Assembly: GCF_018885265.1 (NCBI RefSeq)
Contig: NZ_CP076538.1
Coordinates: 7,042,001-7,106,000, forward strand
Reading direction: 5' to 3'
Source: Amycolatopsis aidingensis
GTDB taxonomy: Bacteria > Actinomycetota > Actinomycetes > Mycobacteriales > Pseudonocardiaceae
DNA: 64,000 bases
Made by a program: the position numbers and the translations under genes. The stretch's first letter is position 1, and the number at the start of each line of letters is the position of its first letter. Positions 4,905-20,620 of this stretch are shown here, one piece after another. Below the pieces are notes generated by a model. It did no database searches. It was not told the DNA's origin and saw only the letters and a program-made list of their open reading frames with translations.

Positions 4905-7355
4905 TCAGGTGAGCGTGCGCGGGCGGACGGCGTTGGCCCGGTCGACCAGCTCGATCCGCTGGTCGGAGCTGCCGGCAAGGCGGGCAAGCGAGCGGTAGCA
5001 GCGCTCTAGCCCGAACCGGATGTCCCGGTCGGCGAGGGCGCAGCCGAGCACGGTGGCACCCGGGGTGACCTGCGTACCGCGGGCGTTCGCGCTGCGCAGC
5101 CAGTCGTGCGCGGCCTCGAGCACCTCGGCCGAGAGCCGGGCACGTCGCTCCGCGTCCAGCGAGAGCCGTTCCAGCTGGGCGGCGGCCTGCACCAGATCAC
5201 GCTCGGCGACCTGGCCCTGCTCCCCGTTCCTTGTCTTGATCTTTACCGCGGCGACCTGGGCGTCCACATGGTGCGTGGAGGCCACCGGGATGGACTCCAG
5301 CACCTCCACCGCACCGGCCCGGCCACCCTGCGCCAGGTACACCCTGGCCAGCCCGAAGGCGGCGCTCACGTAGGACCGGTCAGTGCGCCAGACCAGCTCG
5401 TAGAAGCGGGCGGCCGCGAAGTAGTCGCCGACGTACTCCGCGCTGACCCCGAGCGCCAGCTTCGGCGCGATCTCGCCGGGCAGGTCGTCGTACACCGTGT
5501 CGAAGGCCGCCTGGGCCACTCGCGGCCTGCCGCCGGCCAGCTCGATCAGCCCGCGGTACCAGTCGATCCGCCAGTCGTGCGGGTACCCGGCCTTGATCGC
5601 GAGGTACTGGGCGGCCTGCAGCTGGCGGCCTGCCTCGGCCAGCTCGCCGAGCTCGATCCTGGCGCGCACGATGCGCAGCCGGACCTCGATGGACTCCCGC
5701 GGCGCCCCGGCGAGGGCCTCGATCGCGGTACGCGGATCGGCCTGCAGCACGGTGGCCAGCACCCCCGCGCCCGCGTCCCCGGTGTCGATCTGCGGGATCG
5801 GCAGCCCGGTCACCACCTGGCCGGGGTCCGGGAGCGGAACCGGACTGCCCTGCACCCCCTGCTCGGGCAGCACCATGTCCACCCCGAAGGTCTTGGTCTC
5901 CGGGCCGAATACGGGGGAGACACCGGGGCGCGGCTCGCCGGTGCCCAGCGACATGATCTCGCGCAGCACCCCGGTGAGCTGGTCGGCCATGTCCTCGGCG
6001 GAGAGGAAGCGGCGGTCCGGGTCGGCATGCGTGGCGCGGCGCAGGAACCGGTAGTACGAGCCGAAAAGGGCGAACAGCGGGACCTCGTCCGGCCCGGGCA
6101 GGGTGGTCTTGTACTTGGTGGTGTAACCGGCGAACTCGAAGCTGAGCACGGCCAGGGTGCGGCCGACGGTGTAGAGGTCGGAGGCCACCGAGGCGCCGTG
6201 CTTGGGCAGCTCGGGGGCGCTGTAGCCGGTGGTGTAGAACAGCGGGCTCTCGTAGTCGTCCATCCGGCGCACCGCACCGAGGTCGATCAGCTTGAGCTGC
6301 TCGTGCGTCTGGATCACGTTGTCCGGCTTCAGGTCGCAGTACAGCAGCCCCTGGCTGTGCAGGTAACCCAGCGCGGGCAGGATCTCCAGCCCGTAGGCGA
6401 TGACCTGGCCGATCGGCAACGGCTCCGGGCGACCGGTCTCCCGGTGGTGCGCCAGCGCCAGCTGGCGCAGCGACTGGCCCCCGACGTACTCCATCACGAT
6501 GTAGCCGACCGAGGTGCCGGTGTGGTTGTCCGGATGCTGCACGAAGTTGTAGATCCGGACGATGTTCGGATGCTCGACCTCGGCGAGGAACCGGGTCTCG
6601 TTCACCGCGGCGGCCAGCGCGGTGGCGTCGCCGGTGTCGATCAGTCCCTTGAGCACGACCCAGCGGTCGCTGACGTTGCGGTCCTTGGCGAGGTAGATCC
6701 AGCCGAGCCCGCCGTAGGCCAGCGCGCCGAGCACCTCGTACTGCCCGCCGACCACCTCGCCGGGCCGCAGCTTCGGCAGAAAGGAGAACGAGGCGCCGCA
6801 CTTCGGGCACCTGCCCTCCGGCTCGCCCGGTTTGCCGTCCTTGCCCCGGCCGACCTTCGCCTGGCAGCTGCCGCAGAACCGTTTCTCCTCCGACACCACC
6901 GGGTTCGCCAGCACGGCCGATGCCGGGTCCCGGTAGGGCACCTGCGGCACGTCCACCAGGCCGGCACCGAGCCTGCCGCGGCGCGAGGTCCGCGCGGAAC
7001 TGCGCCGGGAGGTGCCGGGGAAGGTGCCGGGTCCGGTACCGGGCCCTGTTCCCGGCCACGAGCCCGGCTCGCTGCCAGGGGTGCTGCCGGGACCGGTGCC
7101 CGGCCTGCTGCCCCCGCTGGTGCTCGGCGGCAGCACGCTCTCCGTTCCGGGGTCCGGCAAGGGCACGTCCGAGCCCGGTTCCACCGCGGGTGCGGGCGGC
7201 GCGATACTCCTGGTCTCCGCGGGCGCGTTCAGCACACTGGTCAGCTGCGGGTCGCCGGCAGCTTGCTGCGGCTGTTGCTGCGGCTGCTGCTGGGGTGGGC
7301 GCGGGGGCTGCTGGGGCTGCCGCTGCTCGGGCTCACGCCAGACCTGGTCCGACAC
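4905..7355 (-). CDS. pknG: Serine/threonine protein kinase PknG
   Basis: An 816-residue soluble kinase. A long Pro/Gln/Gly-rich tail (1-145) is followed by a rubredoxin-like metal site (CGSC near 158 and CPKC near 181), the kinase domain (glycine loop near 206, YCDLKPDN near 340, IDLG near 357), then a TPR domain to the C-terminus. This is the domain order of mycobacterial PknG, which phosphorylates the FHA protein GarA/OdhI to balance 2-oxoglutarate use against glutamate synthesis. The catalytic loop has CDLKPDN rather than HRDLKPxN, as in other PknGs. GTG start with GGGAGG upstream. It is the last gene of the glnX-glnH-pknG operon, 12 bp after glnH. Confidence 0.95.
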   Translation of the reverse strand: MSDQVWREPEQRQPQQPPRPPQQQPQQQPQQAAGDPQLTSVLNAPAETRSIAPPAPAVEPGSDVPLPDPGTESVLPPSTSGGSRPGTGPGSTPGSEPGSWPGTGPGTGPGTFPGTSRRSSARTSRRGRLGAGLVDVPQVPYRDPASAVLANPVVSEEKRFCGSCQAKVGRGKDGKPGEPEGRCPKCGASFSFLPKLRPGEVVGGQYEVLGALAYGGLGWIYLAKDRNVSDRWVVLKGLIDTGDATALAAAVNETRFLAEVEHPNIVRIYNFVQHPDNHTGTSVGYIVMEYVGGQSLRQLALAHHRETGRPEPLPIGQVIAYGLEILPALGYLHSQGLLYCDLKPDNVIQTHEQLKLIDLGAVRRMDDYESPLFYTTGYSAPELPKHGASVASDLYTVGRTLAVLSFEFAGYTTKYKTTLPGPDEVPLFALFGSYYRFLRRATHADPDRRFLSAEDMADQLTGVLREIMSLGTGEPRPGVSPVFGPETKTFGVDMVLPEQGVQGSPVPLPDPGQVVTGLPIPQIDTGDAGAGVLATVLQADPRTAIEALAGAPRESIEVRLRIVRARIELGELAEAGRQLQAAQYLAIKAGYPHDWRIDWYRGLIELAGGRPRVAQAAFDTVYDDLPGEIAPKLALGVSAEYVGDYFAAARFYELVWRTDRSYVSAAFGLARVYLAQGGRAGAVEVLESIPVASTHHVDAQVAAVKIKTRNGEQGQVAERDLVQAAAQLERLSLDAERRARLSAEVLEAAHDWLRSANARGTQVTPGATVLGCALADRDIRFGLERCYRSLARLAGSSDQRIELVDRANAVRPRTLT

Positions 7356-7367
7356 TGCTACCTCCCG

Positions 7368-8330
7368 CTACCTGTACTCGGGCTGGGGCGGGCTCGCCGG
7401 ACCGAGCCGTTCGGCCACCCACTCGTCATAGCTCTGCTGCCACCGGCCGCCGCGTACCAGCTCGAGCACGTGGTTGACGAACCGCACCATGTCCTCGTTC
7501 TCCTTGGGGATGCCGACCCCGTACGGCTCCTCGGTGAAGGTCTCGCCGACGACCTTCGTGGTCGGATCCTGCGCGGCCATCCCGGCCAGGATGGTGTCGT
7601 CGGTGGACACCGCGGCCACCTGCCCCTGCTGCAGCATGACCAGGCAGTCCGACCAGTCGTTCACCTGCACCGGGATCGGGCCGGACACGGCCGCGATGTT
7701 CTTCAGCGAGGTGGAGCCCTTGGCCGCGCATACCCGCTCGCCTTCGAGGCCGGCCAGGCTGGTCACCGAGGATGTCTTGTCCACGAGCAGCCGCTGGCCC
7801 GCGACGTAGTACACCGAGGAGAAGTTGACCTTGTCCCGCCGCGCGCAGTTCACCGTGTAGGTCCGCACCACGACGTCCACCTCGCCGTTCATCAGCACAT
7901 CCTCGCGCTGGGCCGAGGTGATCGCCTGGAACCGGATCTTCTCCGGGTCACCGAAGATCGCCCTGGCGATCTCCTTGGCGATGTCGATGTCGAAGCCCTC
8001 GAGCTTGCCGGTGGTGGGGTTGCGGAAACCGAACAGGAAGGTGTTCTGGTCCACCCCGGCGACCAGATGCCCGCGCTCCCTGATTTCGGCCATTGTGGAC
8101 CCGGCGGGAATACCGGCCTGGGGCGGCAGGCTGGCCGTGGCGTTGCAGTCCGGCGACTCCGACTTCTCGCTGTCCACATCGACCGGACCGGAGCCCGCGG
8201 GCTCCGGGCGCTGCACCGAACCCACCGGCGCCGGATCGACCGGCTCGCCGGGCGAGCCGCAACCGGTGGCCAGCACCGCCAGCGTGCCCAGCACGGCGAA
8301 CAGTTTCCTTGGCAATCCCCGCTTGCTCAC
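7368..8330 (-). CDS. glnH: GlnH-type amino-acid-binding lipoprotein
   Basis: A 320-residue family 3 solute-binding protein. The signal peptide ends in LATGC (Cys24), so it is tethered to the outer membrane face. The bilobed binding domain spans about 70-310. No ABC permease or ATPase adjoins it; its neighbours are a four-segment membrane protein and PknG. In mycobacteria the same trio works as a sensor: GlnH binds aspartate/glutamate outside and passes the signal through GlnX to PknG. Transport is therefore unlikely to be its job. The GTG start overlaps the glnX stop as GTGA, indicating translational coupling. Confidence 0.92.
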   Translation of the reverse strand: MSKRGLPRKLFAVLGTLAVLATGCGSPGEPVDPAPVGSVQRPEPAGSGPVDVDSEKSESPDCNATASLPPQAGIPAGSTMAEIRERGHLVAGVDQNTFLFGFRNPTTGKLEGFDIDIAKEIARAIFGDPEKIRFQAITSAQREDVLMNGEVDVVVRTYTVNCARRDKVNFSSVYYVAGQRLLVDKTSSVTSLAGLEGERVCAAKGSTSLKNIAAVSGPIPVQVNDWSDCLVMLQQGQVAAVSTDDTILAGMAAQDPTTKVVGETFTEEPYGVGIPKENEDMVRFVNHVLELVRGGRWQQSYDEWVAERLGPASPPQPEYR

Positions 8331-9745
8331 CGATACTCCCTCAGCCGTTCCCTGATCCCCATCGTCACGCCGAGCGCGGCGATCACCGCCAGCACCGCGA
8401 ACCCGGGCGCGAGCAGGATCAGGGCACGGGACCCGTTCGTGGTGTCGTCCAGAAAGCCTTGCCGCGCGGCGTTGATCGCCTCAGCGAGGTGACCGTCCAG
8501 GCGGGTGAACGCCGCCGCCGCGCTCTGCTCGTCCGTGCTGTCCATCGCGAGCCCCACCGCCCGGTCGTGGTTGCCGGCCTGGTCCAGCGACCGGACCTCG
8601 GTGTGCGCACGCAGCCAGGCACTCGCGTCCTCCGCCGCGGCGGCCGTGGGCTCGGCGGCGGGTTCACCCGCGGTCAGGTTCCGCGCCCGCTCCAGCATGC
8701 CGCCCTCGCCGTCCGGCCCGGCCAGTTCGGCGCTCAGCTGCACGAACTCCTTCTCGTACTCATCGCCGCCGCCCCGTGCCACCAGGGTCAGGGTTTCGTC
8801 CGCCCGTGCCTTCAGCGCGGTGATCCTTGCCTGCACCAGCTGGTCCACCTGCTCGGTGCTGTCTCGGCCCGCGGACACCAGCACGCTCTGCACGATCAAA
8901 GCCGCAGCGGTCCACAGGATCGCCACCCCGACCGCGATCGTGGCCACCACCAGCCCGATGTTGAACACCCGGTTGGTGCTGCGCTTGATATGCACCTGCG
9001 CCGCGATCAGCGCGCCCAGCAGCGCCAGCACGAGCAGCGCGGTCAGCCACGGGAACCCGCTGGCGTCGTCCTGTTCCGCGGCCAGCCGCTGGGTGTCGAT
9101 CCGGTACAGCTCCTCGGCCGCCGGTAGCAGAGTGGAGCGCATCAGGTGCGAAGCCTCGCGCAGATAGGAGGCGCCGACCGGGAAACCCTGCAGGTTGTTC
9201 GCCCGTGCCTGCTCCACCAGTCCGGTGTAGACGGGCAACTGCTGGCTGAGGATGTCGACCTGGGTGGCCGCGTCGCCGACCCCCGCGGAGTCGGAGGCCG
9301 CCTTGGCCAGCGCGGCACCCGCCTTGGCGATATCCAGCTCGTACCGTTCCCGCAGTTGCCGCGGCTCACCCCCGGTGAACAGGAAGGAGCTGGCCGCGGT
9401 GGCATCGGCGTCGGAGAGCGAGCGGTACACCTCCTGCGCCGCGGCGGCGAGCGGTTCCCGGTGCTCGATCAGCCCGTCGATGGAGCCCTTGCGGTCCTGC
9501 ATGGCGATGGTGCCGAACACCCCGGTCAGCAGGGCGAGCACGATCAGCCCCACGGCGATCAGGGACAGCCTGCCGGGGGTGCGGCGCGTGGCGCGGACGA
9601 TCCGGCGTACGGCGCCCGCAGGCAACTCGGCAAGACCCGCCAGCCCGGACCGGGACTGCGCAGGCGCCCCATGGCCGCCCGGCCCCGGCGTGCCTGCGGC
9701 CTGCGCGCCGTGCTCCCCGGCAGCGCGGGTCGCGGTGCTCGTCAT
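8327..9745 (-). CDS. glnX: GlnX-type four-segment membrane sensor
   Basis: A 472-residue membrane protein matching the mycobacterial glnX gene in position and topology. An N-terminal Ala/Gly-rich cytoplasmic tail leads to a first membrane helix (about 45-70), a helical extracytoplasmic domain, two closely spaced helices in the middle, a second helical domain and a last helix close to the C-terminus. It probably relays GlnH binding to cytoplasmic PknG. ATG 9745 has GGAGGG 8 bp upstream, which decides it over the longer open frame. It is the first gene of the operon, so the promoter lies at about 9750-9860. Confidence 0.85.
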   Translation of the reverse strand: MTSTATRAAGEHGAQAAGTPGPGGHGAPAQSRSGLAGLAELPAGAVRRIVRATRRTPGRLSLIAVGLIVLALLTGVFGTIAMQDRKGSIDGLIEHREPLAAAAQEVYRSLSDADATAASSFLFTGGEPRQLRERYELDIAKAGAALAKAASDSAGVGDAATQVDILSQQLPVYTGLVEQARANNLQGFPVGASYLREASHLMRSTLLPAAEELYRIDTQRLAAEQDDASGFPWLTALLVLALLGALIAAQVHIKRSTNRVFNIGLVVATIAVGVAILWTAAALIVQSVLVSAGRDSTEQVDQLVQARITALKARADETLTLVARGGGDEYEKEFVQLSAELAGPDGEGGMLERARNLTAGEPAAEPTAAAAEDASAWLRAHTEVRSLDQAGNHDRAVGLAMDSTDEQSAAAAFTRLDGHLAEAINAARQGFLDDTTNGSRALILLAPGFAVLAVIAALGVTMGIRERLREYR

Positions 9746-9862
9746 TGTGTCTACCCTCCGCCCAGTCGCGAGACTCGCATGACCGTAGCCGAGTCCGCGG
9801 CGGGACACGCGGTTAGCCGGGTGGTCGGTTGAACATTCTCCCCGGCCGGCGCATCCGCGTGG

Positions 9863-10510
9863 TCAGGAACCGGACAGATCGTTGCGATACGCATACCGCA
9901 CGGCCTCGGCACGGTTACGAACACCGATCTTGGCGAAGGCATTGTTGATATGTGTCTTGACCGTTGTCTCGCCGATGAACAGCCGCCCGGCGATCTCGGC
10001 ATTGCTCAGCCCGGCGCCGATCAGCCCGAGCACCTCGGCCTCGCGAGCGGTGAGACCGTCCGGCGGCTTACGGTCGCCCGTCGGCGGGTCCAGCGCGGCG
10101 ACCAGCCTGCTGGAGACGTCCGCCGCGAAGGTCGACTGGCCGGCCGCGGCCGAGTGCAGCGCGGCGGTGATCTCGCCCCGGCCGGCGTCCTTGGTCAGGT
10201 AACCGCGCGCACCCGCACGCAGCGCGCCCGCGATCGAGTCGTCATCGGAATAGGTGGTGAGCACGACCACCGCGGTCCCTGGGAACTCCCGGTTGATCCG
10301 CTCGGTGGCCGCCACCCCGTCGAGCCCTGGCATCCGCAGGTCCATCAGCACCACGTCGGCCCGTTCCCGCGCCAGGGACTCCAGCGCCGCGGCCCCTTCG
10401 GCGGCGGACCCGGTCACCTGCACGCCCTCGACCAGCCCGAGCAGCGCAACCAGCCCTTCCCGGATCACCTGCTGGTCGTCCACGACGAGCACCCTGATCG
10501 GCTCACCCAT
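9863..10510 (-). CDS. NarL/LuxR-type response regulator
   Basis: A 215-residue response regulator. The receiver domain (1-120) has the acidic pair D11-D12 and phosphoacceptor Asp57 (in LMDLRMPG). The C-terminal LuxR-type helix-turn-helix (about 149-205) includes LTAREAEVLGLIGAGLSNAE. It overlaps the end of the histidine kinase gene by 8 nt, so the pair is translationally coupled and should form one two-component system. The signal and target genes are unknown. The small membrane protein just upstream of the kinase may be part of the same unit. Confidence 0.94.
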   Translation of the reverse strand: MGEPIRVLVVDDQQVIREGLVALLGLVEGVQVTGSAAEGAAALESLARERADVVLMDLRMPGLDGVAATERINREFPGTAVVVLTTYSDDDSIAGALRAGARGYLTKDAGRGEITAALHSAAAGQSTFAADVSSRLVAALDPPTGDRKPPDGLTAREAEVLGLIGAGLSNAEIAGRLFIGETTVKTHINNAFAKIGVRNRAEAVRYAYRNDLSGS

Positions 10511-11645
10511 CCGGTACCTCCGCGCTCACTCGCCAGGTCCGCCCCTCGCCGCCCGCGGTCAGGGTGCCACCGGCCAGCGCGATCCGCTCGCGTAGCCCGG
10601 TCAGCCCGAACCCCTGCGGGCGCACCACCTGGTTGCCGGTGCGCTCGTTCAGCACGCGCAGGGACACCCGGCCGGAGCCGAACTCCAGCACCATGGCGAC
10701 CGCCGCGCCGGGCGCATGCCGCGCGGCGTTGGTGAGCGCTTCCCTTGCGATCCCGGAAAGTGAGACGGCGGCGGCCGAGGACACCGCGCGCGGCACCCCC
10801 TCGGTGCGGAATTCCACCGGCGTGCCGTGGTCCGCGCGATGCCTGCCGGCGAGTTCGGCCAGTGCCTCGGTCAGCGCGGGCACGTCCTTACGTAGCGCGG
10901 CAACGGCGTTTCTCGCCTCGGCAAGCCCGTCCGCGGCCAGCCGCCGCGCGCGCCGCACCGTACCCAGTGATCCTTCCACATCGGACTTCTCGGCGAGTTG
11001 CGCCTCGGCGAGCTCCAGCTGGACGCCGAGGGCCCCGAGGGAATGCGCGAGCACATCGTGGATCTCCCGCGCGATCCGGGTGCGCTCGTCAAGCGCGGCG
11101 GCACGCGCGTGCTCCGCCTGGGCCAGGCGGGTCTGTTCGAGCAGTTGCTCGGCCTGCCGCGCCCGCACCCGGTCCTGCCGCTGGTGCAGGCCGAACAGCA
11201 TGAACAGCAACAGCACCCCCGGTGTCACCAGCGCCTCGGCGACCGGGGATCCGGCCAGTACGCCGGAGGCGGTGGCGAGCAGGGCGCCGCCCACCCCGGT
11301 CAGCACGATTGTGCTGACGCCGGGTGTCTCGAGCGCGGCGAACCTGCCGAGCGCGATGGCGCCGAGGATGGCCGGGGTCATGTCGGCCGCGGGCCCGGCC
11401 GCGAGTGCGGGCAGGGCCGCGGCCACCCCCAGCATGGCCGCAGAGAACCGGGGTGCCCTGGCCCCGGCGAGGACGAACACCGTCCAGCAGACGGCACAGG
11501 CGCCGTAGCAGGCCCAGATCCACGGCTCGTCCTCGCGCGCGGTGAGCAGGGTCACCGCGAGGAACACCGTGCCGAACACCTGCACCACCAGCCACCCTGG
11601 CGCGAGGTTGTCCGGCAGCCGCCATCGGCGCTTCGCTTCGGTCAT
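10503..11645 (-). CDS. Sensor histidine kinase, HisKA_3 type
   Basis: A 380-residue membrane kinase. Five or six hydrophobic helices fill the first 150 residues with no large outside domain, so it probably senses the membrane itself. The dimerisation/phosphoacceptor motif REIHDVLAHSLGAL follows, then an ATPase domain ending with the G-box GFGLTGLRER. This is the NarX/DesK-like class that pairs with LuxR-type regulators, as found directly downstream. ATG 11645 was chosen because the upstream continuation (Cys/Ser-rich) overlaps the small gene at 11680 and is not codon-biased; GGGAG abuts the start and is tighter than usual. Confidence 0.93.
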   Translation of the reverse strand: MTEAKRRWRLPDNLAPGWLVVQVFGTVFLAVTLLTAREDEPWIWACYGACAVCWTVFVLAGARAPRFSAAMLGVAAALPALAAGPAADMTPAILGAIALGRFAALETPGVSTIVLTGVGGALLATASGVLAGSPVAEALVTPGVLLLFMLFGLHQRQDRVRARQAEQLLEQTRLAQAEHARAAALDERTRIAREIHDVLAHSLGALGVQLELAEAQLAEKSDVEGSLGTVRRARRLAADGLAEARNAVAALRKDVPALTEALAELAGRHRADHGTPVEFRTEGVPRAVSSAAAVSLSGIAREALTNAARHAPGAAVAMVLEFGSGRVSLRVLNERTGNQVVRPQGFGLTGLRERIALAGGTLTAGGEGRTWRVSAEVPDG

Positions 11646-11679
11646 CTCCCGATTCTCGGCATCGGCCGCCCCGGCGCGC

Positions 11680-11823
11680 TCACCGGCCGGACAGGCTGGT
11701 GATGATCTCGACCAGGAGCAGCCGGTAGGCCAGGAAGCCGAGCAACAGCAGCACACCCACCCCGATCAGCAGGAGCAATGCCCGGCCGCCTGTGCGCTTG
11801 TCATCCCTACCCGTGTTGTCCAT
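11680..11823 (-). CDS. Small single-pass membrane protein
   Basis: A 47-residue protein with a charged head (MDNTGRDDKRTGGR) and one strong hydrophobic helix (about 16-40). I do not recognise a family. It lies 34 bp upstream of the histidine kinase gene on the same strand and could be cotranscribed as a small sensor accessory. The longer frame upstream is Pro/Ser-rich and unlikely to be translated. Confidence 0.5.
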   Translation of the reverse strand: MDNTGRDDKRTGGRALLLLIGVGVLLLLGFLAYRLLLVEIITSLSGR

Positions 11824-11910
11824 GAGGCGAACGCTAGGCCGCGGGGCGGGTGGAGCGGGACCACTCCGGGGTGGAGACGCGGGTGGAGATGAGGAGGGTG
11901 CAGACAAGAC

Positions 11911-11943
11911 GGTGCCCGCCACCTCGGTGAGGTGGCGGGCACC
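11911..11943 (-). terminator. Terminator of the second cold-shock gene
   Basis: A perfect 15-bp stem (11911-11925 with 11929-11943) and a 3-nt loop begin 24 bp past the stop codon, followed on the minus strand by a T-rich stretch. Confidence 0.8.
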
Positions 11944-11967
11944 GGGAAAAACGTCTGGGGGTCAGCC

Positions 11968-12171
11968 TCAGATGACGCTGACCGAGGTGGCCTGCGGGCC
12001 CTTCTGGCCCTGGCCGATCTCGAACTCAACGCGGGCGTTCTCCTCCAGGGTCCGGAAGCCGTTGCCCTTGATCTCCGAGTAGTGCACGAAGACGTCCCCG
12101 TCGCCCTGGTCGGGGGTGATGAAACCGAAGCCCTTCTCGGAGTTGAACCACTTAACGGTGCCCTGCGTCAT
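11968..12171 (-). CDS. Cold-shock protein, CspA family
   Basis: A 67-residue OB-fold RNA chaperone with intact RNP1 (KGFGFI) and RNP2 (VFVHY), closely related to the protein at 1144-1353. ATG 12171 gives the canonical [10 protein letters not shown] start; 12 extra upstream codons are open but would add an atypical hydrophobic head. Upstream lies an unusually A/T-rich stretch (12180-12200) that could be the ribosome-entry or cold-box-like leader of this mRNA. It is monocistronic, with a strong hairpin downstream. Confidence 0.95.
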
Positions 12172-12576
12172 GAAAATCTCCTGTGTGACAAAAAATAAGG
12201 ACGACACCGGCCGTAACCGAATGTCCTACACAGTCAAGCACACCCGGGCGCTGAACGCCAACGGATACCAGCCGAACGTGTGTGTGATAACTATCCTGAA
12301 CCGCCCGCGAACCGCCCGGACCAGCCAAGAAGAAATAATCTGAGTATGACGACGAGACTCGCCGGAATAATTACGAACGAGCCGGAAATGCGCCCAGTGG
12401 CCAAAACACGATTATTCCTATTGGGCGCTGCTGAGGCTCCGATCTACGAGCGGCTGACCGCGAAACGATGTGCGCCGAGAACGCTACCCGATCGGCAGGC
12501 CGTACGCCATGCCCCGCGCGGCCTCCTCGGGGTGAGACCGGAGTCACAGCGGGTACCGGTGCGTTAGCTTGCCCGC
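12172..12576. other. Divergent intergenic region, A/T-richer than average
   Basis: About 400 bp between the cold-shock gene and the thioesterase gene. It should hold both promoters and a cold-shock 5' leader. An inverted repeat GCGCCCA / TGGGCGC lies at about 12390-12429. A 73-codon frame from 12346 lacks codon bias and a ribosome-binding site and is not called. Confidence 0.5.
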
Positions 12577-12999
12577 ATGCAGACCTCCTACCCGCACTGG
12601 GAAACCGTGCCCACCCGGTGGAAGGACAACGATGTCTACGGGCACATGAACAACGCCGTGCACTACTCGATCATGGACACGGTCATCAACACCTGGCTGA
12701 TCCGCGAGGGTGGCCTGGACATCCATGCCGGCGACACGATCGGCCTGTGTGTGGAGTCGCACTGCAACTACCACGCCGCAACGGCCTTCCCCGAGTCGCT
12801 GGCTGTCGGTCTGCGGGTCGGCAAGCTCGGCGGCTCCAGCGTGCGGTACGAGGTCGGCATCTACCGCGAGGACCGGGAGACCGTGGTCGCCGAGGGGCAT
12901 TTCGTGCACGTGTTCGTGGACCGGGAGACCCGCAGGCCCCGGCCGATCAGTGGGCGGCTACGCGACTCGCTGGCGGCGCTGCTGGTGGAACCCGGGTGA
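12577..12999 (+). CDS. Acyl-CoA thioesterase, YbgC/4-hydroxybenzoyl-CoA type
   Basis: A 140-residue single hot-dog domain, the usual length for the family. The signature NDVYGHMNNAVHYSIMD (about 16-32) matches the DxxGHxNNxxY motif of YbgC/FadM thioesterases, with Asn in the first Asp position. The substrate is unknown. Its last 53 nt overlap the convergent end of the lanthipeptide ABC transporter gene, so antisense transcription across both 3' ends is likely. No functional link with the lanthipeptide is evident. Confidence 0.88.
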   Translation: MQTSYPHWETVPTRWKDNDVYGHMNNAVHYSIMDTVINTWLIREGGLDIHAGDTIGLCVESHCNYHAATAFPESLAVGLRVGKLGGSSVRYEVGIYREDRETVVAEGHFVHVFVDRETRRPRPISGRLRDSLAALLVEPG

Positions 13000-14707
13000 A
13001 CGAGCCCTCCCATGCCTGCATCAGCTCGGCATAGCGCGGCGAGGAGACCAGCAGCTCGTCGTGCCCGCCGAGCAGGGTGTCCCTGCCGTCCATCACCAGT
13101 ACCCGGTTGGCCCGCAGGGCGGAGCTGAGCCGGTGCGCGATCACCACGAGCACCCCGCCCCTGGCGGCGAAGGCGCGCTCGGCCCTTGCCTCGGCCGCCG
13201 CGTCCAGGTTGGCGGTGGCCTCGTCCAGCACGATCACCTCGGCCGGGCTGGCGTAGAGCCTGGCCAGCGCGAGCAGCTGCACCTCACCGGTGGACAGGCC
13301 CTCCCCGCCGTGCGCGACCGAGCCGTTCAACCCGCCCAGCCGTTCCAGCAGCCTGCTCGCGCCCACCGCCTCGGCGGCCGCGAGCAGGTGGGACTCGCTG
13401 GCCGACGGCGCGAACAGGGAGAGGTTCTCCCGGACCGTGCCCGCGAAGACATAGGACTCCTGCGGGGTGAGCGCGATCAGCCGGTGCCGTGCCTCCGGCC
13501 GGATCTCGCGTACCGGCACCCCGCCAAGCAGCACCTGCCCGCGCTGCGGGGCGAGCATTCCGGTGATCAGCCCGGCCAGGGTCGACTTGCCGATACCACT
13601 CGGCCCGACCACGGCAAGGTGATCACCGGGACCGAGCTCGAGGTCGAGGCCGGTGACAATGGGTTCGGCATGCGCGCCCCAGCCGAAGGTCAGCCCGCTG
13701 GCGACCAGTTCGCGGCCCTCCGGCACCCGGGTGCCGCCCTCCGGCGCGGGCTCGTCCCCGCCTGCCCCGGCCTCGCCCAGCCTGCGCAGCGCGACCAGCA
13801 GCCGCAGCACCACGGTGCTCGCCGTGGAAGCCAATCCCTGCAGGGCGGGTTGCATGGTGCTGGCCAGGTAGACCAGCGAGCCGAGCGCGGCGCCCGCGGT
13901 GAGCTGCCCGGCCGCGACCATGCCCGGCGCCATGACCAGCACCAGCACCAGCGGCACGAAGGCACCTACCGCGATCACCAGGGTGCGCATCGCGGTCGCA
14001 ACCGCCATCCGGACCTTCGCCCTGGCCTGAGCCTCGATCCGGGAGTCCACGGCGGCGATCGCGGCGGGTTCGGCCCCGCAGGCGACCACATCGCGCAGGC
14101 CGGCGAGCACCTCGCCCGCGGACTCGGCGGTCCCCTCGTCGGCGATCGCGAGTGCCCGCTGCCTGCTTGCCAGGGTGGGCAACAGGCCGACGAACACGGC
14201 CACCGACAGCACCACCGGCACCGCGACCGCCCAGGCCAGCGTCCCGGCCACGGTGAACAGCCCGGCGAGCGCGCTCACCGTGGTCACCACCATGCCCCGC
14301 GCCTGCACCAGCAGCCCGGCGGTGGCGTCCCGGATCACCTCGATGTGCTGGGTGATCCGGGCGACCCCACTGGCGTCCGGCCGGTGCCGGTGCGCGGCGC
14401 CGCCGCGCAGCACCCCGCGCACCACGGCGCCGACCATGGTGTCGCGCAGCGGCTCGATGATGCTGCCGAGCCGCCGCCAGACCAGCCGGGAGCCGAACGC
14501 GCCGAGCACGGCGACCGCGCCGAAGACCAGCAGCCAGCCAACGCCGATGGCAGGCCGGCCTGCCCCGAACCCGTCGTCCACGGCGAGCTGGACCAGCCGC
14601 CCGGACAGGAAGGCGGGGGCGCCTTCCAGCACGGAGCAGACCAGCAGCACCAGGCCACCGCGCCACTGCTTGCCGAGCGTCGTCCAGTACAGCTTCGTGA
14701 CCGTCAC
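12947..14707 (-). CDS. ABC half-transporter of the lanthipeptide operon (RamB-like)
   Basis: A 586-residue fused membrane/ATPase half-transporter. Six membrane helices (about 10-300) precede the ATPase domain with Walker A GPSGIGKST, signature LSTGEVQ (Thr replaces the usual Ser/Gly at the third position) and Walker B VIVLDEATANLD. The GTG start at 14707 overlaps the stop of the partner gene as GTGA, so the two halves are made in step and probably form a heterodimer that exports the modified lanthipeptide. The frame continues far upstream inside the partner gene, but that part is a shadow. No peptidase C39 domain is present. Confidence 0.9.
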   Translation of the reverse strand: MTVTKLYWTTLGKQWRGGLVLLVCSVLEGAPAFLSGRLVQLAVDDGFGAGRPAIGVGWLLVFGAVAVLGAFGSRLVWRRLGSIIEPLRDTMVGAVVRGVLRGGAAHRHRPDASGVARITQHIEVIRDATAGLLVQARGMVVTTVSALAGLFTVAGTLAWAVAVPVVLSVAVFVGLLPTLASRQRALAIADEGTAESAGEVLAGLRDVVACGAEPAAIAAVDSRIEAQARAKVRMAVATAMRTLVIAVGAFVPLVLVLVMAPGMVAAGQLTAGAALGSLVYLASTMQPALQGLASTASTVVLRLLVALRRLGEAGAGGDEPAPEGGTRVPEGRELVASGLTFGWGAHAEPIVTGLDLELGPGDHLAVVGPSGIGKSTLAGLITGMLAPQRGQVLLGGVPVREIRPEARHRLIALTPQESYVFAGTVRENLSLFAPSASESHLLAAAEAVGASRLLERLGGLNGSVAHGGEGLSTGEVQLLALARLYASPAEVIVLDEATANLDAAAEARAERAFAARGGVLVVIAHRLSSALRANRVLVMDGRDTLLGGHDELLVSSPRYAELMQAWEGSFTRVPPAAPPASRVAAH

Positions 14708-16407
14708 GATGTACCCGTCCCGGCTTCGGTCTCTTCCTCGGTGAACACGGATCGGTACTCCGGCTCGGACCACAGCTCGGCATGCGGCGCGCAGGCCCGG
14801 ATCCGGCCATCCTCCAGCCACAGCACCCGGTCGGCGCGGCGCGCGGTGCCCGCCCGGTGGGTGACCACCACCCTGGTCCGGCCTGGCAGGGTCGACTCGA
14901 TCGCGTCCTCCACCATGCTCTCGGTGACGGTGTCCAGGCTGCCGGTGGCCTCGTCCAGCACCAGCAGTCGCGGCTTGCGCGCCAGCGCTCGCGCCAGCCC
15001 CAGCCGTTGTGCCTCCCCGCCGGAGAGCGGGGTCTGCTCCAGTGGGGTGCGGTAGCCCTCCGGCAGCCGCACCACCAGGTCGTGCACCTGGGCGGCACGG
15101 CAGGCCTCCCGCACCGCGGACGGGCCGGCCCAGCTGCCATAGGCCACCGCATCCTGCACGGTCGCTCCGAGCAGTGCGGGCCGCTCGAAGGCGTGCCCTA
15201 CGGCGGCCCGTACGTCCTCGGCCGGGAGCTGGTCCACCGGAACCCCGTGCAGCAGCGCCGCACCCCGGTCCGGCGGCCGCAGTCCGCCGAGCACGGCGGC
15301 CAGCGCCGTCTTGCCGGCACCCGACCTGCCGACCACGGCAAGGCTGGTGCCCGCAGGCACGGTGAGGTCGATGCCCTCCAGCGCGCCGTCCACCCCGACA
15401 CCGCGCAGCTCGATCTCGCCATGGCCCGCGGGCAGTGGCCGGTCGCCGTCCCGCGGCAACGGGGAGTCGAGTACCTCGGCCAGCCGGGTGCCGCAGCCGC
15501 GCGCCCTGGACAACGTGGTGAGCAGCGGGATCTGCTGGACCAGGCTCATCCCGAGGACCACGTAGCCGAGCGCGGCGAGCACATCGCCGATGGAGAGCCT
15601 GCCGGCGAGCACCCCGAAACCCGCGGCGGTGAGCACGCCGAGCTGCACCGCGGGCAGCAGCAGCCCGGCCCGCCAGACCATCCGGGCCTGGGTGCGCCAC
15701 ATGCCGATCCCGGCCGCGGCCAGCCGGGGCAGCGGGCGCAGCACGCGGGCAGCCTCCCGCTCCGCGGTGCCGGAGGCCGCGATGGTGCGCAGCCCGCCGA
15801 CCGCGTCCAGCAGCCGGGCCGAGAGGTCCCCGGAAACCTGCTGGTAGGAGAGCACGTCGGCGGCGGTGAGCCGCAGGTGGGAGCGGGCGAGCAGGAGCGC
15901 GATCGGCACGCTGCCGAGGAACACCACGGCCAGCCGCCAGTCCAGCAGGGCCAGCAGCACGATCGCGCCGGTGGAGACGACCACGGCGGAGCACAGCTGC
16001 ACCAGGATCGAGGAGATCTCGGCTGCGCCCGCGCAGTCGGTGGTCACCCTGCTGACCGCGTCGCCCGCGACGAAGGGGGAACGGGTGCCGAGGCCGGTCA
16101 GCTGCCGGGTGAGCCTGCGGCGCAGCCACGCGCCCGCGCCCGCGGTCACCCTGGCGGTGATGATCACGGCGGCCACATCGGCGACGATCTCGGAGATGCC
16201 GAGGGTGAGCAGCCAGAGCACCTGGGGCCAGGAGCGCTCGGCGGCGACCGCCGCGTCCACGGCGTCGGCGAGCGCACCCGGCAGCAACAGCCCGGCCGTG
16301 GTGGCGATCACGGCCATCAGAGCGAGTAGCAGCAGCCGAGGGGGGTCGTGCCGCAGGACCGCGAGCAGCACCCGGTCACCAGGCGCACGCACGCTCGTTA
16401 GTCCCAC
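14704..16407 (-). CDS. ABC half-transporter of the lanthipeptide operon (RamA-like)
   Basis: A 567-residue half-transporter with six membrane helices, then the ATPase domain (Walker A GRSGAGKTA, signature PLSGGEAQ, Walker B LLVLDEATGSLD). It pairs with the downstream half-transporter. The start is GTG 16407 or the adjacent GTG 16410; AAGGAGG lies 6 bp before 16407. As in ramCSAB operons, the order is kinase-cyclase, precursor, then two transporters. A strong hairpin between precursor and this gene probably lowers its expression relative to the precursor. It lacks a protease domain, so leader removal must be done elsewhere. Confidence 0.9.
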   Translation of the reverse strand: MGLTSVRAPGDRVLLAVLRHDPPRLLLLALMAVIATTAGLLLPGALADAVDAAVAAERSWPQVLWLLTLGISEIVADVAAVIITARVTAGAGAWLRRRLTRQLTGLGTRSPFVAGDAVSRVTTDCAGAAEISSILVQLCSAVVVSTGAIVLLALLDWRLAVVFLGSVPIALLLARSHLRLTAADVLSYQQVSGDLSARLLDAVGGLRTIAASGTAEREAARVLRPLPRLAAAGIGMWRTQARMVWRAGLLLPAVQLGVLTAAGFGVLAGRLSIGDVLAALGYVVLGMSLVQQIPLLTTLSRARGCGTRLAEVLDSPLPRDGDRPLPAGHGEIELRGVGVDGALEGIDLTVPAGTSLAVVGRSGAGKTALAAVLGGLRPPDRGAALLHGVPVDQLPAEDVRAAVGHAFERPALLGATVQDAVAYGSWAGPSAVREACRAAQVHDLVVRLPEGYRTPLEQTPLSGGEAQRLGLARALARKPRLLVLDEATGSLDTVTESMVEDAIESTLPGRTRVVVTHRAGTARRADRVLWLEDGRIRACAPHAELWSEPEYRSVFTEEETEAGTGTS

Positions 16408-16436
16408 CACGCCCCTCCTTGGGGAAGAATGAGTGA

Positions 16437-16473
16437 CGCGGGAGCGGCACACTTGGCCTGTGCCGCTCCCGCG
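16437..16473 (-). terminator. Hairpin between lanthipeptide precursor and transporter genes
   Basis: A perfect 15-bp stem (16437-16451 with 16459-16473) with a 7-nt loop, 47 bp after the precursor stop and 30 bp before the transporter start. It most likely acts as a partial terminator or mRNA 3' stabiliser, giving more precursor than transporter. Confidence 0.8.
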
Positions 16474-16519
16474 CCCTCGCGTTACCGTCCGAATCGGCGC
16501 TTCAGCGCCGGAGCGAACC

Positions 16520-16663
16520 TCAGTGGCAGGTCAGCAGGCTGACGGTGCTGTTCGCGCAGGAGGCGATCAGGCTCAGGTTGCTGCCGCCACCGCCGTGGCT
16601 CGGGCCGCCGTACTCCGGCGCGTCGGCGGACTCGAGGTTCTGCAGGTCGAGAACGTGCTCCAT
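16520..16663 (-). CDS. Class III lanthipeptide precursor, SapB/RamS-like
   Basis: A 47-residue peptide read directly from the sequence. The leader (MEHVLDLQNLESADAPEY) carries the LDLQ-type recognition motif of class III leaders. After a Gly-rich stretch (GGPSHGGGG), the core holds two ring motifs: SNLSLIASC (residues 28-36, Ser-x2-Ser-x4-Cys) and STVSLLTC (39-46, Ser-x2-Ser-x3-Cys), ending in His47. Two tandem SxxS...C motifs of mainly Leu/Val/Ala residues are the pattern of SapB, the surfactant that lets Streptomyces hyphae leave the surface. AAAGGAA lies about 7 bp before ATG 16663. It begins 21 bp after the kinase-cyclase stop. Confidence 0.92.
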   Translation of the reverse strand: MEHVLDLQNLESADAPEYGGPSHGGGGSNLSLIASCANSTVSLLTCH

Positions 16664-16684
16664 CAGTATTTCCTTTCGGGTTAC

Positions 16685-19330
16685 TTACTTTCCTCCGGCC
16701 GGGGATTGACCGGGGGTCCGGGGAGGACGGCCAGGGGTGCCCAGGAAGGGCAGCACCGGCCCATGACCGTCCACAGTGGAGGCGAGCGCGAGCAGCAGCC
16801 CCGCGCCGCCGGTCTTCAGGTCCATGGAGAGCCGCAGCAGCTGGTTGCCGGGGACCGCGATCCCGTCCTCGCCGAACGGGATGCCGTGCCAGGCCAGCCG
16901 GGAAAGGTGCCGGTTGACCGACTCGGCCAGCACCGGATCGGGCGCGCGCCGGTCGGCCTCGGCCAGGGTGACCATCAGGCCCGCACGGCCGAACAGCAGG
17001 CTGGGGTGGACGACGAACTCGCCGCGGCAGGCCTTGAGCAGTTCCGGGATCCGCGCGGCGCTCTCCGCTCCCGGCCGGTACTCGGCCAGCTCACCGGCCA
17101 CGATCGCGACCCCCGCGCTGCCGATGGCCAGGTAGGGCAGGGTGCGCGCGCCGCCGTCGCGTACCTGCAGCGAACCGTCGTCGGCCAGGACGCCTTCGGC
17201 GAGGTCCCGTTGTAGTGCCTGTTCGGCGAGGTCCAGCCAGGACTCCTCGCCGGTGTCGTCGTACAGCCGCAGGAACAGCAGGGCCGGGCCGGACCAGCCG
17301 TGCAGCAGCCCTGCCCTGGCGAAACCGCCGGGCGCCTCGGCTCCGGCCACCGCCTCGGCCAGCCGGTCACCGATCCGCATCGCGTGCGCCCGGAAGTCCG
17401 CGTCCTGCCGGGTGGCGGCGAAGTGCCGCAGGTTGAGCGCGATCCCGGCGAGGCCACCGTCCAGGCTGTGGTCCTGGGTCTGCTCCACCAGGTTGGCGGC
17501 ACCGTCCAGCACCGCGGTGGCCTCCTCGGAGTGCCCGAGGTTCTCCAGCACGTAGGCGATGCCGTGCGCGCCGTCGTAGAAGCCCGGCCGGGCGGGCCGC
17601 TCCCGGCGCACCGCCTCGATCAGCCAGCGTTCGTGCTCGGGGTAGCGGCCGGCACCGGTGACCTCCAGCGCATGCAGCACCCCGGCCGCGCCGTAGCCGA
17701 AGCAGGTGCCGCCGACGCGGAACTGCTCGATGTCACCGGGGAACAGCCGGTCGGCACGCTCCGGGGTGGCGCTGGCAAGGATGGCCTCGGCCAGCGACTT
17801 GCGCACCATGCCCCAGTCCGGTTCCGGCTGGTCCAGTTCGGTACTGGCCGGGGCGAGGCGTGCCCCCTGCTCGTCCCGCGGGGCGAGCACGTTCAGCACG
17901 GACTCGCCGAAGCCCGCCGGCACCGGGAAGCGCCGTTCGACGAACTCGACCAGCGGGAACAGCTTCGCGGGCGAGAGCTCGAGCAGCGCGTTGACCGGAA
18001 GGAACAGCCACAGGCGCAGCGCGGCGAGCGCGTACTCGTCGATCTGGAATCCGGTGCGGTCCCGTGGCGCCCGGAAGCCGGGGGCGCCGAGCGCGGGCCT
18101 GCCGCCGGTGTCCACCGGAGCGGCCAGCTCGAAGTCGATCAGTGAGATCCGCGGCGACCCGGCGGTGTGCTTGGTGTCCCCGGCCTCTTGGCCTTCTTGG
18201 CCTGCCTCGTCGTCCACCATGATGTTCAGCGCGTGCAGATCGCCGAAGACGACCCCGCGCTCGTGCACCTCGGAGATCAGCCTGGTCACCGAGTCGAGCA
18301 GGCCGAGGGCACGCCGGGTGTAGTCGGCCACCTCCCGCTCGTCGATGTCCCCACGGGTCAGCGGGTAGTTGCGGGACAGCCAGGAACCAAGGGGGCGCCC
18401 GCGCACGTACTCCATGGCGAGGAAATGGTGCTCCCACACGGTGAACAGGTCGTACACCTCGGGAATGCCCTCGATGCCCGCCAGCCGGGTGAGGATGTCG
18501 TACTCGCGCTGCAGGCGGGTCACCGCGTCGGCCTGGTCGCGGTCCAGGCCGGCGTGCGGTCGGCCCTCCTTGAGCACGAGCTCCTTGCCGTCCGCCAACC
18601 GCTCGGCCTGGTACACGCCACCGCCGTTGGAGAAGTGCAGGGATCTCGTCACCCGGTAGGGGAAGTCGGCGGGGTCGCCGCCCTTGCGCGCCGCGACATG
18701 CGGCTCGAGGCACTCCGGAAGGTCGACCCAGTCCGGGACCACAAAACTGGGACCACGTTTGTCGGGTACCAGGGTGCCGTCCGATTTGCGGATCGCCAGG
18801 ACCCGGGTACCATCCGCTTCCACCCACCGTTCGACGAACCCGCCGTAGCGCACGAAGAGCGGCCCTTTACCATAACGAAGATCACTCAGAATATAGGGGC
18901 CTTCCTCGCCGTCGAGTTTCCCCGAAAGATCGGCGAGCACCCGCTCGAACTGACCGTCGTCGGCCGGGTAGATGGTTATTAACTTCCCACTCGCCGAACG
19001 CGGAGCGTATTTGGAATTACGAGCGAGCAGGATCGACCGGGTGCGCAGGTACTTGAAGGAGATCTTATGTGCGAGACAGTACTCGTGAACCGTCGTCAAC
19101 ACCCGTTCGGCGTTGTCGAGACAAGCGGAAACATGGATCTTCCAACCCTGCTCGGGCAGAGGCCCCGAGGTGGGACGCAGCATGCGCCACACCCCCATGT
19201 CCTCCCGTAGCCAGCCGGAATCCGGTTGCTCAAGTTCGTGCCCCAGCACATCCTCCGCCGTGGCGGACTCCCGCTGCTCGTCGAAGAACAGCGGATCCGC
19301 GAAGCAAAAAGCCTCATAACGGAGATCCAT
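16685..19330 (-). CDS. lanKC: Class III lanthipeptide synthetase, kinase-lyase-cyclase (RamC/LanKC-like)
   Basis: An 881-residue trifunctional enzyme that dehydrates Ser in the precursor core and closes the rings. The N-terminal third is the lyase-type region of LanKC. The kinase domain has a lysine motif LVLKEG near 250 and the catalytic block VVFGDLHALN near 363. A LanC-like cyclase fold runs from about 520 to the end (LHGWSGPALL, DLKTGGAGLL). The zinc-binding Cys-Cys-His set of class I/II/IV cyclases is not visible, as expected for class III. ATG 19330 has GGAAAGG 8 bp upstream. It heads the operon; paired inverted repeats about 230-280 bp upstream may regulate it. Confidence 0.94.
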   Translation of the reverse strand: MDLRYEAFCFADPLFFDEQRESATAEDVLGHELEQPDSGWLREDMGVWRMLRPTSGPLPEQGWKIHVSACLDNAERVLTTVHEYCLAHKISFKYLRTRSILLARNSKYAPRSASGKLITIYPADDGQFERVLADLSGKLDGEEGPYILSDLRYGKGPLFVRYGGFVERWVEADGTRVLAIRKSDGTLVPDKRGPSFVVPDWVDLPECLEPHVAARKGGDPADFPYRVTRSLHFSNGGGVYQAERLADGKELVLKEGRPHAGLDRDQADAVTRLQREYDILTRLAGIEGIPEVYDLFTVWEHHFLAMEYVRGRPLGSWLSRNYPLTRGDIDEREVADYTRRALGLLDSVTRLISEVHERGVVFGDLHALNIMVDDEAGQEGQEAGDTKHTAGSPRISLIDFELAAPVDTGGRPALGAPGFRAPRDRTGFQIDEYALAALRLWLFLPVNALLELSPAKLFPLVEFVERRFPVPAGFGESVLNVLAPRDEQGARLAPASTELDQPEPDWGMVRKSLAEAILASATPERADRLFPGDIEQFRVGGTCFGYGAAGVLHALEVTGAGRYPEHERWLIEAVRRERPARPGFYDGAHGIAYVLENLGHSEEATAVLDGAANLVEQTQDHSLDGGLAGIALNLRHFAATRQDADFRAHAMRIGDRLAEAVAGAEAPGGFARAGLLHGWSGPALLFLRLYDDTGEESWLDLAEQALQRDLAEGVLADDGSLQVRDGGARTLPYLAIGSAGVAIVAGELAEYRPGAESAARIPELLKACRGEFVVHPSLLFGRAGLMVTLAEADRRAPDPVLAESVNRHLSRLAWHGIPFGEDGIAVPGNQLLRLSMDLKTGGAGLLLALASTVDGHGPVLPFLGTPGRPPRTPGQSPAGGK

Positions 19331-19557
19331 CACACAACCTTTCCGTCCCGCGACGGTATCTTTCGGCCACGCTCAACCCCTCCGGGCAAGGAAGATCCGC
19401 ATTGCGTATCCCGCAACCGATTACCGCAACGTCCGGACCATCCGCACAACGCCTATCCCACAACAATGGGAAGGCCTGAGCCAATCCGCCATCTCAGCGG
19501 TTCGGCTGGGCTGTTCAGGGTACGAAAAATCTCCTACACCCCGGCCGGGACAAAACA

Positions 19558-19610
19558 GTGAGTGGGCACGTCACTCACCGATATCACCCGGATGAGTCGT
19601 AACACTCATC
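19558..19610. promoter_or_regulatory. Two adjacent inverted repeats upstream of lanKC
   Basis: GTGAGTG-N7-CACTCAC (19558-19578) and GATGAGT-N6-ACTCATC (19591-19610), both perfect, share TGAGT/ACTCA half-sites and lie 33 bp apart start to start. They lie about 230-280 bp upstream of lanKC and the same distance from the rightward gene, so the regulated promoter is uncertain. A dimeric activator or repressor is implied. Confidence 0.55.
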
Positions 19611-19803
19611 TGCACTCCACCAATGCAGGTGACAGCTGTGTGAATGCCTGCCCCTTTTTCACACTAAAGAGGAGCAGAACCGCCGGGCACTACTAACGAG
19701 TATGCGATAAAGGCCGACTTTGTCGTGCACCTGGCTGAGTGTCGACCACCCGGACGCAGCATCCTCCGCCGTACCATCGGCTGGCCCAAGGGGACAGGTA
19801 TAC

Positions 19804-19818
19804 ACTACCGCTTGTAGT
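19804..19818. promoter_or_regulatory. BlaI-type operator, copy 1
   Basis: ACTAC-CGCTT-GTAGT, a perfect 5-bp inverted repeat with 5-bp spacer, ends 21 bp before the GTG start of the membrane-protein gene at 19840. It has the same half-sites and spacing as the site at 20969-20983 and resembles the TACTACA/TGTAGTA operators bound by BlaI/MecI repressors. A blaI gene lies 2 kb away. Confidence 0.7.
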
Positions 19819-19839
19819 AGTTTTGCTGGACGGAGGATC

Positions 19840-20205
19840 GTGGTCACCTGGCTCGCGACGGCGGTCGCGCTGTGTTCACTGGCCGTCGCCTGCTGGAGCT
19901 TCGTCTCGGCGGCAAGGGGCCGCTCGCCGAAGGACCCGCTGCTGGTCGCGATCGCGGTGCTGGAGGTCCTGCTGCTGGCGCAGGTTGTGGTGGCCGTCGT
20001 GCTGCTGATCTCCGGGGATCGCCCTGGCAGCATGGCCACGTTCATCGCCTACCTCATCGGCTCGCTCGCCGTGCTGCCGGTGGCGACGCTGTGGGCGCTG
20101 GCCGAGCGGAGCAGGTCGAGCACGGTGGTGCTCGGGGTGGCCTGCGTGACCGTGCCGGTGTTGATCCTGCGAATGCACGAGGTATGGGGAGGTGCTGGTG
20201 CCTGA
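19840..20205 (+). CDS. Small multi-pass membrane protein
   Basis: A 121-residue protein with about four membrane helices and almost no soluble part; the family is unrecognised. GTG 19840 is preceded by GGAGG with short spacing; the longer upstream frame would run through the operator and is rejected. It overlaps the next gene by 8 nt, so the two are cotranslated and may work as a complex. The BlaI-type operator just upstream suggests it is repressed by the nearby BlaI and released through BlaR. Confidence 0.65.
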   Translation: MVTWLATAVALCSLAVACWSFVSAARGRSPKDPLLVAIAVLEVLLLAQVVVAVVLLISGDRPGSMATFIAYLIGSLAVLPVATLWALAERSRSSTVVLGVACVTVPVLILRMHEVWGGAGA

Positions 20206-20620
20206 GGACCGTGCCGAGCGCGCCGCGCCCCGGACCGCGAGTGGGCCGGGGCGGGTGCTGGTTGCGGTGTACGCGATCTTCGCGGTCGCGGCGACCTCCC
20301 GGGCGGCGGTGCAGATCGCGACCCGCTTCGAGGAGGCACCGCTGGCCTACCTGCTGTCCGCGTTCGCGGCCGTGGTGTACCTGCTGGCCACCCTCGCGCT
20401 CGCCCGTTCCGGCCGGGCGTGGTGGCGGATCGCGCTGGCCGCCTGCAGCGTGGAACTGGCCGGGGTGCTCACCGTGGGCACGTTGACCGTGTTCGACGCC
20501 GCGGCCTTCCCGGATGCCACGGTGTGGTCCAACTACGGACGGGGCTACCTGTTCATCCCACTGGTACTGCCCGCGATCGGCCTGTACTGGCTGCGCCGGA
20601 CCGGGCGGGCTACCAGATAA
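20198..20620 (+). CDS. Small multi-pass membrane protein
   Basis: A 140-residue protein with a polar N-terminal head (about 1-18) and four predicted membrane helices; the family is unrecognised. GTG 20198 has GGGGAGG 6 bp upstream and is preferred to GTG 20192. It overlaps the preceding membrane-protein gene by 8 nt, and its last 11 nt overlap the convergent gene at 20610. It probably shares the BlaI-type promoter upstream of 19840. Confidence 0.65.
   Translation: MPEDRAERAAPRTASGPGRVLVAVYAIFAVAATSRAAVQIATRFEEAPLAYLLSAFAAVVYLLATLALARSGRAWWRIALAACSVELAGVLTVGTLTVFDAAAFPDATVWSNYGRGYLFIPLVLPAIGLYWLRRTGRATR

Follow-up and report, generated by a model that had tools for sequence, protein, structure and literature searches.

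A class III lanthipeptide operon in Amycolatopsis

Analysis of a 64,000-nt stretch of the Amycolatopsis aidingensis genome (hereafter, the window) confirmed the presence of a SapB/AmfS-family operon on its minus strand, extending from 19333 to 12947 in the order lanKC–lanA–hairpin–lanT1–lanT2 (Table 1). The class III lanthipeptide operon proposed in the initial annotation, placed at 16520–19330, indeed holds its first two genes within this span, but its real extent reaches to 12947 and adds two ABC transporter genes. Synthetase, precursor and two ABC genes are ordered as in ram/amf operons. Among 67 loci from relatives that spanned 7.9 kb or more, with certain genomes counted twice, 61 had the same synthetase–precursor–T1–T2 order.

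Table 1 Features of the lanthipeptide operon and its flank, in window coordinates
Feature	Position	Strand	Evidence or annotation
lanKC, RamC/AmfT-like class III lanthionine synthetase, 882 aa	16685..19333	-	RamC_N, kinase and LanC-like domains
lanA, RamS/AmfS-like LanA precursor, 47 aa	16520..16663	-	LDLQ leader; predicted rings S28/S31/C36 (x4) and S39/S42/C46 (x3)
Hairpin, 17 pairs including one G-U, between the lanA stop and lanT1	16435..16475	-	Fold z, terminator scan, alignment, pair counts, pairing-only stems, genome search
lanT1, ABC half-transporter 1, RamA/RamB-like	14704..16452	-	PF00664 and PF00005; synteny
lanT2, ABC half-transporter 2	12947..14707	-	PF00664 and PF00005; synteny
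4HBT thioesterase-like gene, convergent flank	12577..12999	+	PF13279

The two transporter genes overlap by 4 bases. In the list of open reading frames, lanT1 starts at GTG 16452, inside the hairpin; a start at GTG 16410 or 16407, behind AAGGAGGGG, is likelier. The convergent thioesterase-like gene overlaps lanT2 with its 3′ end and is present beside many Amycolatopsis-type loci; we regard it as a flanking neighbor and do not propose its membership in the pathway.

LanKC, translated from GTG 19333 or ATG 19330, matched the class III model NF038151 with 1039.7 bits (equivalog cut-off, 575), whereas its score against the class IV LanL model NF038150 (357.2) fell under the cut-off of 650. Pfam matches comprised PF25816 (RamC_N), PF00069 and PF05147. 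The best matches among solved structures were class III LanKCs, 8sao among them (E about 1e-85). Its DFE aligned with that of a solved LanKC; this kinase motif is reported to be conserved in labionin-forming LanKCs (PMC10604976). At E ≤ 1e-3, the genome (one contig, 7.66 Mb) contained a single match to the LanKC protein. Best-segment identities to related synthetases were 70% in Qaidamihabitans albus, 67% in Prauserella, 61–69% in most Amycolatopsis and 59% in Umezawaea; two further Amycolatopsis synthetase loci, at 41–42%, are of a different kind. The gene contains one TTA (codon 118), the sole one among nine window genes checked, which raises the possibility of developmental tRNA control. 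A TTA occupies the homologous column in 11 of 77 synthetase genes, with 28 TTA codons among 66,292 overall, and ten of these 11 genes belong to close Amycolatopsis relatives, so that shared descent explains most of the conservation.

The precursor gene starts 21 nt past the lanKC stop, is preceded by the ribosome-binding-site-like GAAAGGAAA and encodes MEHVLDLQNLESADAPEYGGPSHGGGGSNLSLIASCANSTVSLLTCH. As initially described, this 47-residue peptide follows the RamC-like enzyme and combines an LDLQ leader motif (residues 5–8) with two SxxS...C cores (S28-N-L-S31-L-I-A-S-C36 and S39-T-V-S42-L-L-T-C46), that is, the LxLQ leader and paired SxxSxnC motifs of the SapB/AmfS (RamS) family. Matches to Pfam RamS (PF19402; 57.2 bits, cut-off 24.3) and NCBIfam SapB/AmfS (NF033212; 58.3 bits, cut-off 25) were far beyond chance, and the class III lanthipeptide model NF038159 (39.6 bits, cut-off 30) was matched as well. 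The gene had been considered too short for routine gene calling, which is true only historically: as the RamS and NF033212 models detect it above their cut-offs, the precursor is visible to current annotation. A literature search with the core peptide strings found no paper. Gene content and order, family membership, the paired SxxSxnC motifs (n being 4 in the first and 3 in the second) and the conserved inverted repeat described below are all evident at the level of the DNA.

An enlarged first ring specific to one clade

In the window precursor, four residues separate the second Ser from the Cys of the first ring motif (SxxSx4C) and three those of the second. All 28 unique Streptomyces precursors (30 of 47 match places read) had x3/x3 spacing, bearing out the suggested extra residue in the first ring compared with SapB. 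The window precursor departs from this Streptomyces-type spacing, which the family models do not require. The core reads SNLSLIASCANSTVSLLTCH in the window, as opposed to SRASLLLCGDSSLSITTCN, presumably the SapB core, in Streptomyces loci such as L105. An x4 first ring was present in 34 of 48 unique Pseudonocardiaceae precursors and in none of the 28 from Streptomyces; it falls within the class III range published as SxxSx{2,5}C (PMC11251773). Reading of the family's precursor match places covered 50, plus 40 by eye, all at E 1e-6 or stronger.

On a quick synthetase tree (77 rows, long branches), a clade of 51 rows, supported at 99% (SH-aLRT), is x4 throughout bar two x3 rows (L175, L176), and one x4 row (L079) lies outside. 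Ring size requires a minimum of five changes on this tree, with one row counted in state 2. The larger first ring is thus likely to be an ancient trait of this clade that switched a few times later.

From the motifs, four dehydrations are expected. Comparison of 44 x4/x3 cores, in which Ser and Cys are invariant by construction of the search pattern, revealed residues other than Ser or Thr at core position 8 (Ser35) in 20 cases (P13, A3, G2, H1, N1) and at position 18 (Thr45) in 17 (A9, L5, G3); hence, neither Ser35 nor Thr45 need be dehydrated. Position 13 (Thr40) was Thr or Ser in 43 of the 44 cores, and a fifth dehydration at this residue may be compatible with such conservation. The computed [M+H]+ for the core minus four waters is 1961.96 (S28–H47) or 2018.98 (G27–H47). 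Loss of four waters has been reported for a variant of durhapeptin that carries two SXXSXXXC motifs (PMC13380574). The pN/pS of 0.40 over 29 unique core sequences is biased downward, as the pattern fixed most residues, and was not used as support.

The precursors read also include a recurring subgroup that carries one more Cys, within an SCPSN/SCPSD segment immediately preceding the two rings (L046–L050, L142–L144, L147, L149–L151, L153, L155, L156, L161). At L164 (genome G114), a second precursor-like ORF has the first-ring Cys replaced by Tyr (SNLSLLTHY...), possibly representing a decaying or divergent copy.

Product and genomic context

SapB and AmfS play a role in aerial growth, and by analogy the window peptide may act as a SapB-like morphogen. 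Such genes also underlie class III peptides whose activity is different or not known. The same biosynthesis could yield a non-morphogen, erythreapeptin-like class III lanthipeptide with signaling, antimicrobial or unknown activity. We take this to be a genuine possibility: erythreapeptin production was predicted in 2018 for 21 Amycolatopsis strains (PMC5859366), ramR was found only in streptomycetes according to PMC4255298, and the activity of durhapeptin is reported as strain-selective (PMC13380574). It is countered by the precursor's score on the SapB/AmfS model (58.3 vs. 39.6 bits on the general class III model), by the ram-like gene order and by the TTA in the synthetase gene, a feature of many Streptomyces amf-like clusters (PMC4255298).

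The interval 9863–11756, beyond a cold-shock (CSD) protein gene (11968–12207, minus strand), encodes a LuxR-type response regulator together with a histidine kinase; the pair is not found beside the operon in relatives. Matches to it in relatives (42–46% and 36–38% identity in the Amycolatopsis loci) are located upstream of the synthetase instead, at a distance of several kb, and its reading as a RamR counterpart therefore found no support. At 4905–9808 (minus strand), the gene for a PknG-type kinase adjoins those for a solute-binding protein and for a 493-aa protein that matched no Pfam family.

Chaplins gave no match in the window genome, as compared with 13 in a Streptomyces control (L074), none in A. 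regifaucium or Qaidamihabitans and one weak match in Umezawaea. Across the family, 73 of 200 genomes had chaplin matches at E ≤ 1e-3, but only two matches were strong (76–80 bits). None of the remainder, which fell mostly in long frames and included those of three genomes from the same genus (22–24 bits), exceeded 38.9 bits. With none in the window genome and few strong ones in the family, chaplins were discarded as a marker of SapB context. Given the lack of a match here and the 13 matches in the control, one may speculate that a SapB-like peptide could matter more in this host.

A conserved hairpin follows the precursor gene

A terminator scan flagged the hairpin past lanA, which has a 7-nt loop, as terminator-like, and the 118-nt stretch holding it folded with a z of –5.63. 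When 64 unique Pseudonocardiaceae stretches were searched by pairing only, the strongest stem carried GAGCGGC...GCCGCTC in 50, and the same stem core was present in 44 of the 50 stretches whose precursor is of the x4 form. The six misses include two artefacts (the window stretch had been cut short; in L090, whose motif is present in L027, another stem scored higher), and four remain (L036, L039, L178, L179). Of 97 unique stretches from Pseudonocardiaceae, 61 matched a sequence pattern for the hairpin, against none of 27 from Streptomyces and none of 3 others. Stems of at least 11 pairs after the precursor were nevertheless near-universal (94/97, 25/27 and 3/3, respectively, against a shuffled mean of about 8.7) and beat all 40 shuffles in 88/97, 19/27 and 3/3 cases. 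The leader filter of the pattern search had dropped five loci, two of which contain the hairpin as judged by a hairpin model (L045, L140) and three do not (L039, L139, L069). At least three x4 relatives (L036, L039 and L139) gave no match to this model, and L158 only a weak one.

We aligned 56 of the 57 unique hairpins, leaving out L158 because its loop differs. In this alignment, 94.4% of cells pair, eight pairs have changed on both sides and 105 cells are double changes. The covariation score was 0.306, compared with at most 0.087 for slid partners, with the outer pairs covarying; two weaker measures were reached by shuffles (double-change pairs in 76 of 500, pair types in 24 of 500). Since the rows were chosen with a pattern fixing GCGGC, one A and GCCGC, invariance of the core is partly by construction, and the pairing-only search serves as the check.

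Genome-wide, the hairpin model matched 71 of 200 family genomes. In 50 of these, the best match scored at least 50.9 bits and lay, by eye, beside the precursor match, an association that is partly circular because those copies trained the model. Among the 30 candidates scored per genome under strict filters, no place away from the precursor exceeded 46.4 bits, a limited basis for denying a second copy. Of the matches lacking a precursor match, four were inspected: those in G141 (L183), G181 (L184) and G043 (L185) had no LanKC in the stretch examined, and the one in G109 (L186) has a LanKC next door. Other low-scoring matches fell in G142, G163 and G136, among others. The model thereby led to the LanKC locus at L186:4202 (minus strand), which holds a Cys-rich precursor-like ORF without a SapB/AmfS model match. 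An Rfam search over 10000–20500 left the hairpin unmatched and returned only a sub-threshold cspA match over the cold-shock gene and two chance-level matches. No title on a hairpin or terminator at ramS or other lanthipeptide genes was found among the literature matches listed, which were mostly off-topic and constitute weak evidence of absence.

In the simplest reading, the hairpin probably is a leaky terminator/attenuator or a 3′ stabilizer favoring the precursor mRNA. The x4 relatives without a model match and the small size of the T enrichment past the stem speak against such a role. If it were instead an ordinary terminator of the lanKC–lanA transcript, the transporters would have their own promoter. 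The terminator-like flag on the 17-pair stem and a modest T enrichment past it (0.26 vs. 0.15) are in keeping with this, yet a T-rich patch is present in 20 and absent in 41 of 61 copies, less than 30 nt separate the stem from the likely transporter start, and a scan of 12500–20000 (a weak test in actinobacteria) found no sigma-70-like promoter, so that we consider an ordinary terminator rather doubtful. A more far-reaching proposal holds that the hairpin is an Rfam-unmatched, sequence-conserved RNA element tied to ring-1-expanded precursors across Pseudonocardiaceae, that it acts not as a plain terminator but via a specific factor to set precursor-to-transporter stoichiometry, and that lineages without classical chaplins rely on the x4/x3 peptide as their main surface-active morphogen; taken jointly, these claims appear unlikely. 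Least probable of all is a DNA operator for a dimeric regulator. In its favor, the stem core keeps its sequence beyond pairing (as in the 50 of 64 pairing-only stretches), symmetric changes would also maintain a DNA palindrome, and 20 of the 56 copies have lost one inner pair (columns 19/31). Against it, the repeat sits within the operon past a stop codon, the five outermost pairs include G-U pairing, Streptomyces has sequence-unrelated strong hairpins at the same place, and the sense strand scores higher in the 50 strongest matches bar G061 (weaker exceptions: G023, G010).

Proposed pathway and relation to known systems

The explanation we favor, at a probability of about 0.72, is a complete ram/amf-type operon making a two-ring peptide with a colony-surface role, lanA expression being favored by the hairpin. 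LanKC would bind the LDLQ leader of the precursor, phosphorylate and then eliminate Ser28, Ser31, Ser39 and Ser42, and the addition of Cys36 and Cys46 would form two rings, either as labionins or as lanthionine plus dehydroalanine. The rings of SapB and AmfS are reported to contain lanthionine and no labionin (PMC13380574), and ring chemistry is hence not readable from the sequence. Further points against this explanation are the response regulator/histidine kinase pair, which relatives lack beside the operon, and RamR, reported from streptomycetes only. The ABC pair would export the peptide, and leader trimming would probably fall to peptidases encoded outside the cluster, in line with a report on other class III peptides (PMC8960859); the window genome has four M1-family peptidase matches, none tied to the lanKC–lanA pathway. 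By partly stopping or protecting transcripts past lanA, the hairpin may supply the small substrate in excess over the transporters. The product would be an amphipathic peptide at the colony surface in aerial growth, by analogy with SapB/AmfS.

In SapB/ramCSAB of S. coelicolor and AmfS/amf of S. griseus, the synthetase gene likewise lies beside the precursor gene, with two adjacent ABC genes (PMC4255298), and the LDLQ leader, the two SxxSxnC motifs and the matches to curated RamS and SapB/AmfS models add to the likeness. Differences concern the first ring (x4 vs. x3), the sequence of the hairpin after lanA, the regulator RamR, reported only from streptomycetes (PMC4255298), and the lack of a chaplin match in the window genome. 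The erythreapeptin clusters predicted in Amycolatopsis (PMC5859366) are probably of this operon type too, within one and the same genus. Durhapeptin (PMC13380574) shares the SapB/AmfS family, a class III synthetase, two SxxSxnC motifs and, in a variant, the four-water loss, but is described with two x3 motifs and a three-gene cluster with a single transporter gene, durT.

The precursor model matched 98 of 200 sampled family genomes, including 10 of 11 from the same genus (its own counted), and 36 of 61 Streptomyces-group genomes. With more than 4,000 SapB/AmfS family sequences listed by NCBI according to a 2026 paper (PMC13380574) and the 2018 predictions for Amycolatopsis, this kind of system was already known; the points worth testing are the clade-specific larger ring and the conserved hairpin. 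These observations extend the anatomy of the SapB/AmfS family beyond Streptomyces, with a ring-size change that can be placed on the synthetase tree and a strong hairpin 3′ of the precursor gene in most members examined. If the peptide is a morphogen, SapB-like function would become testable in lineages without recognizable classical chaplins, free of the parallel chaplin system of Streptomyces.
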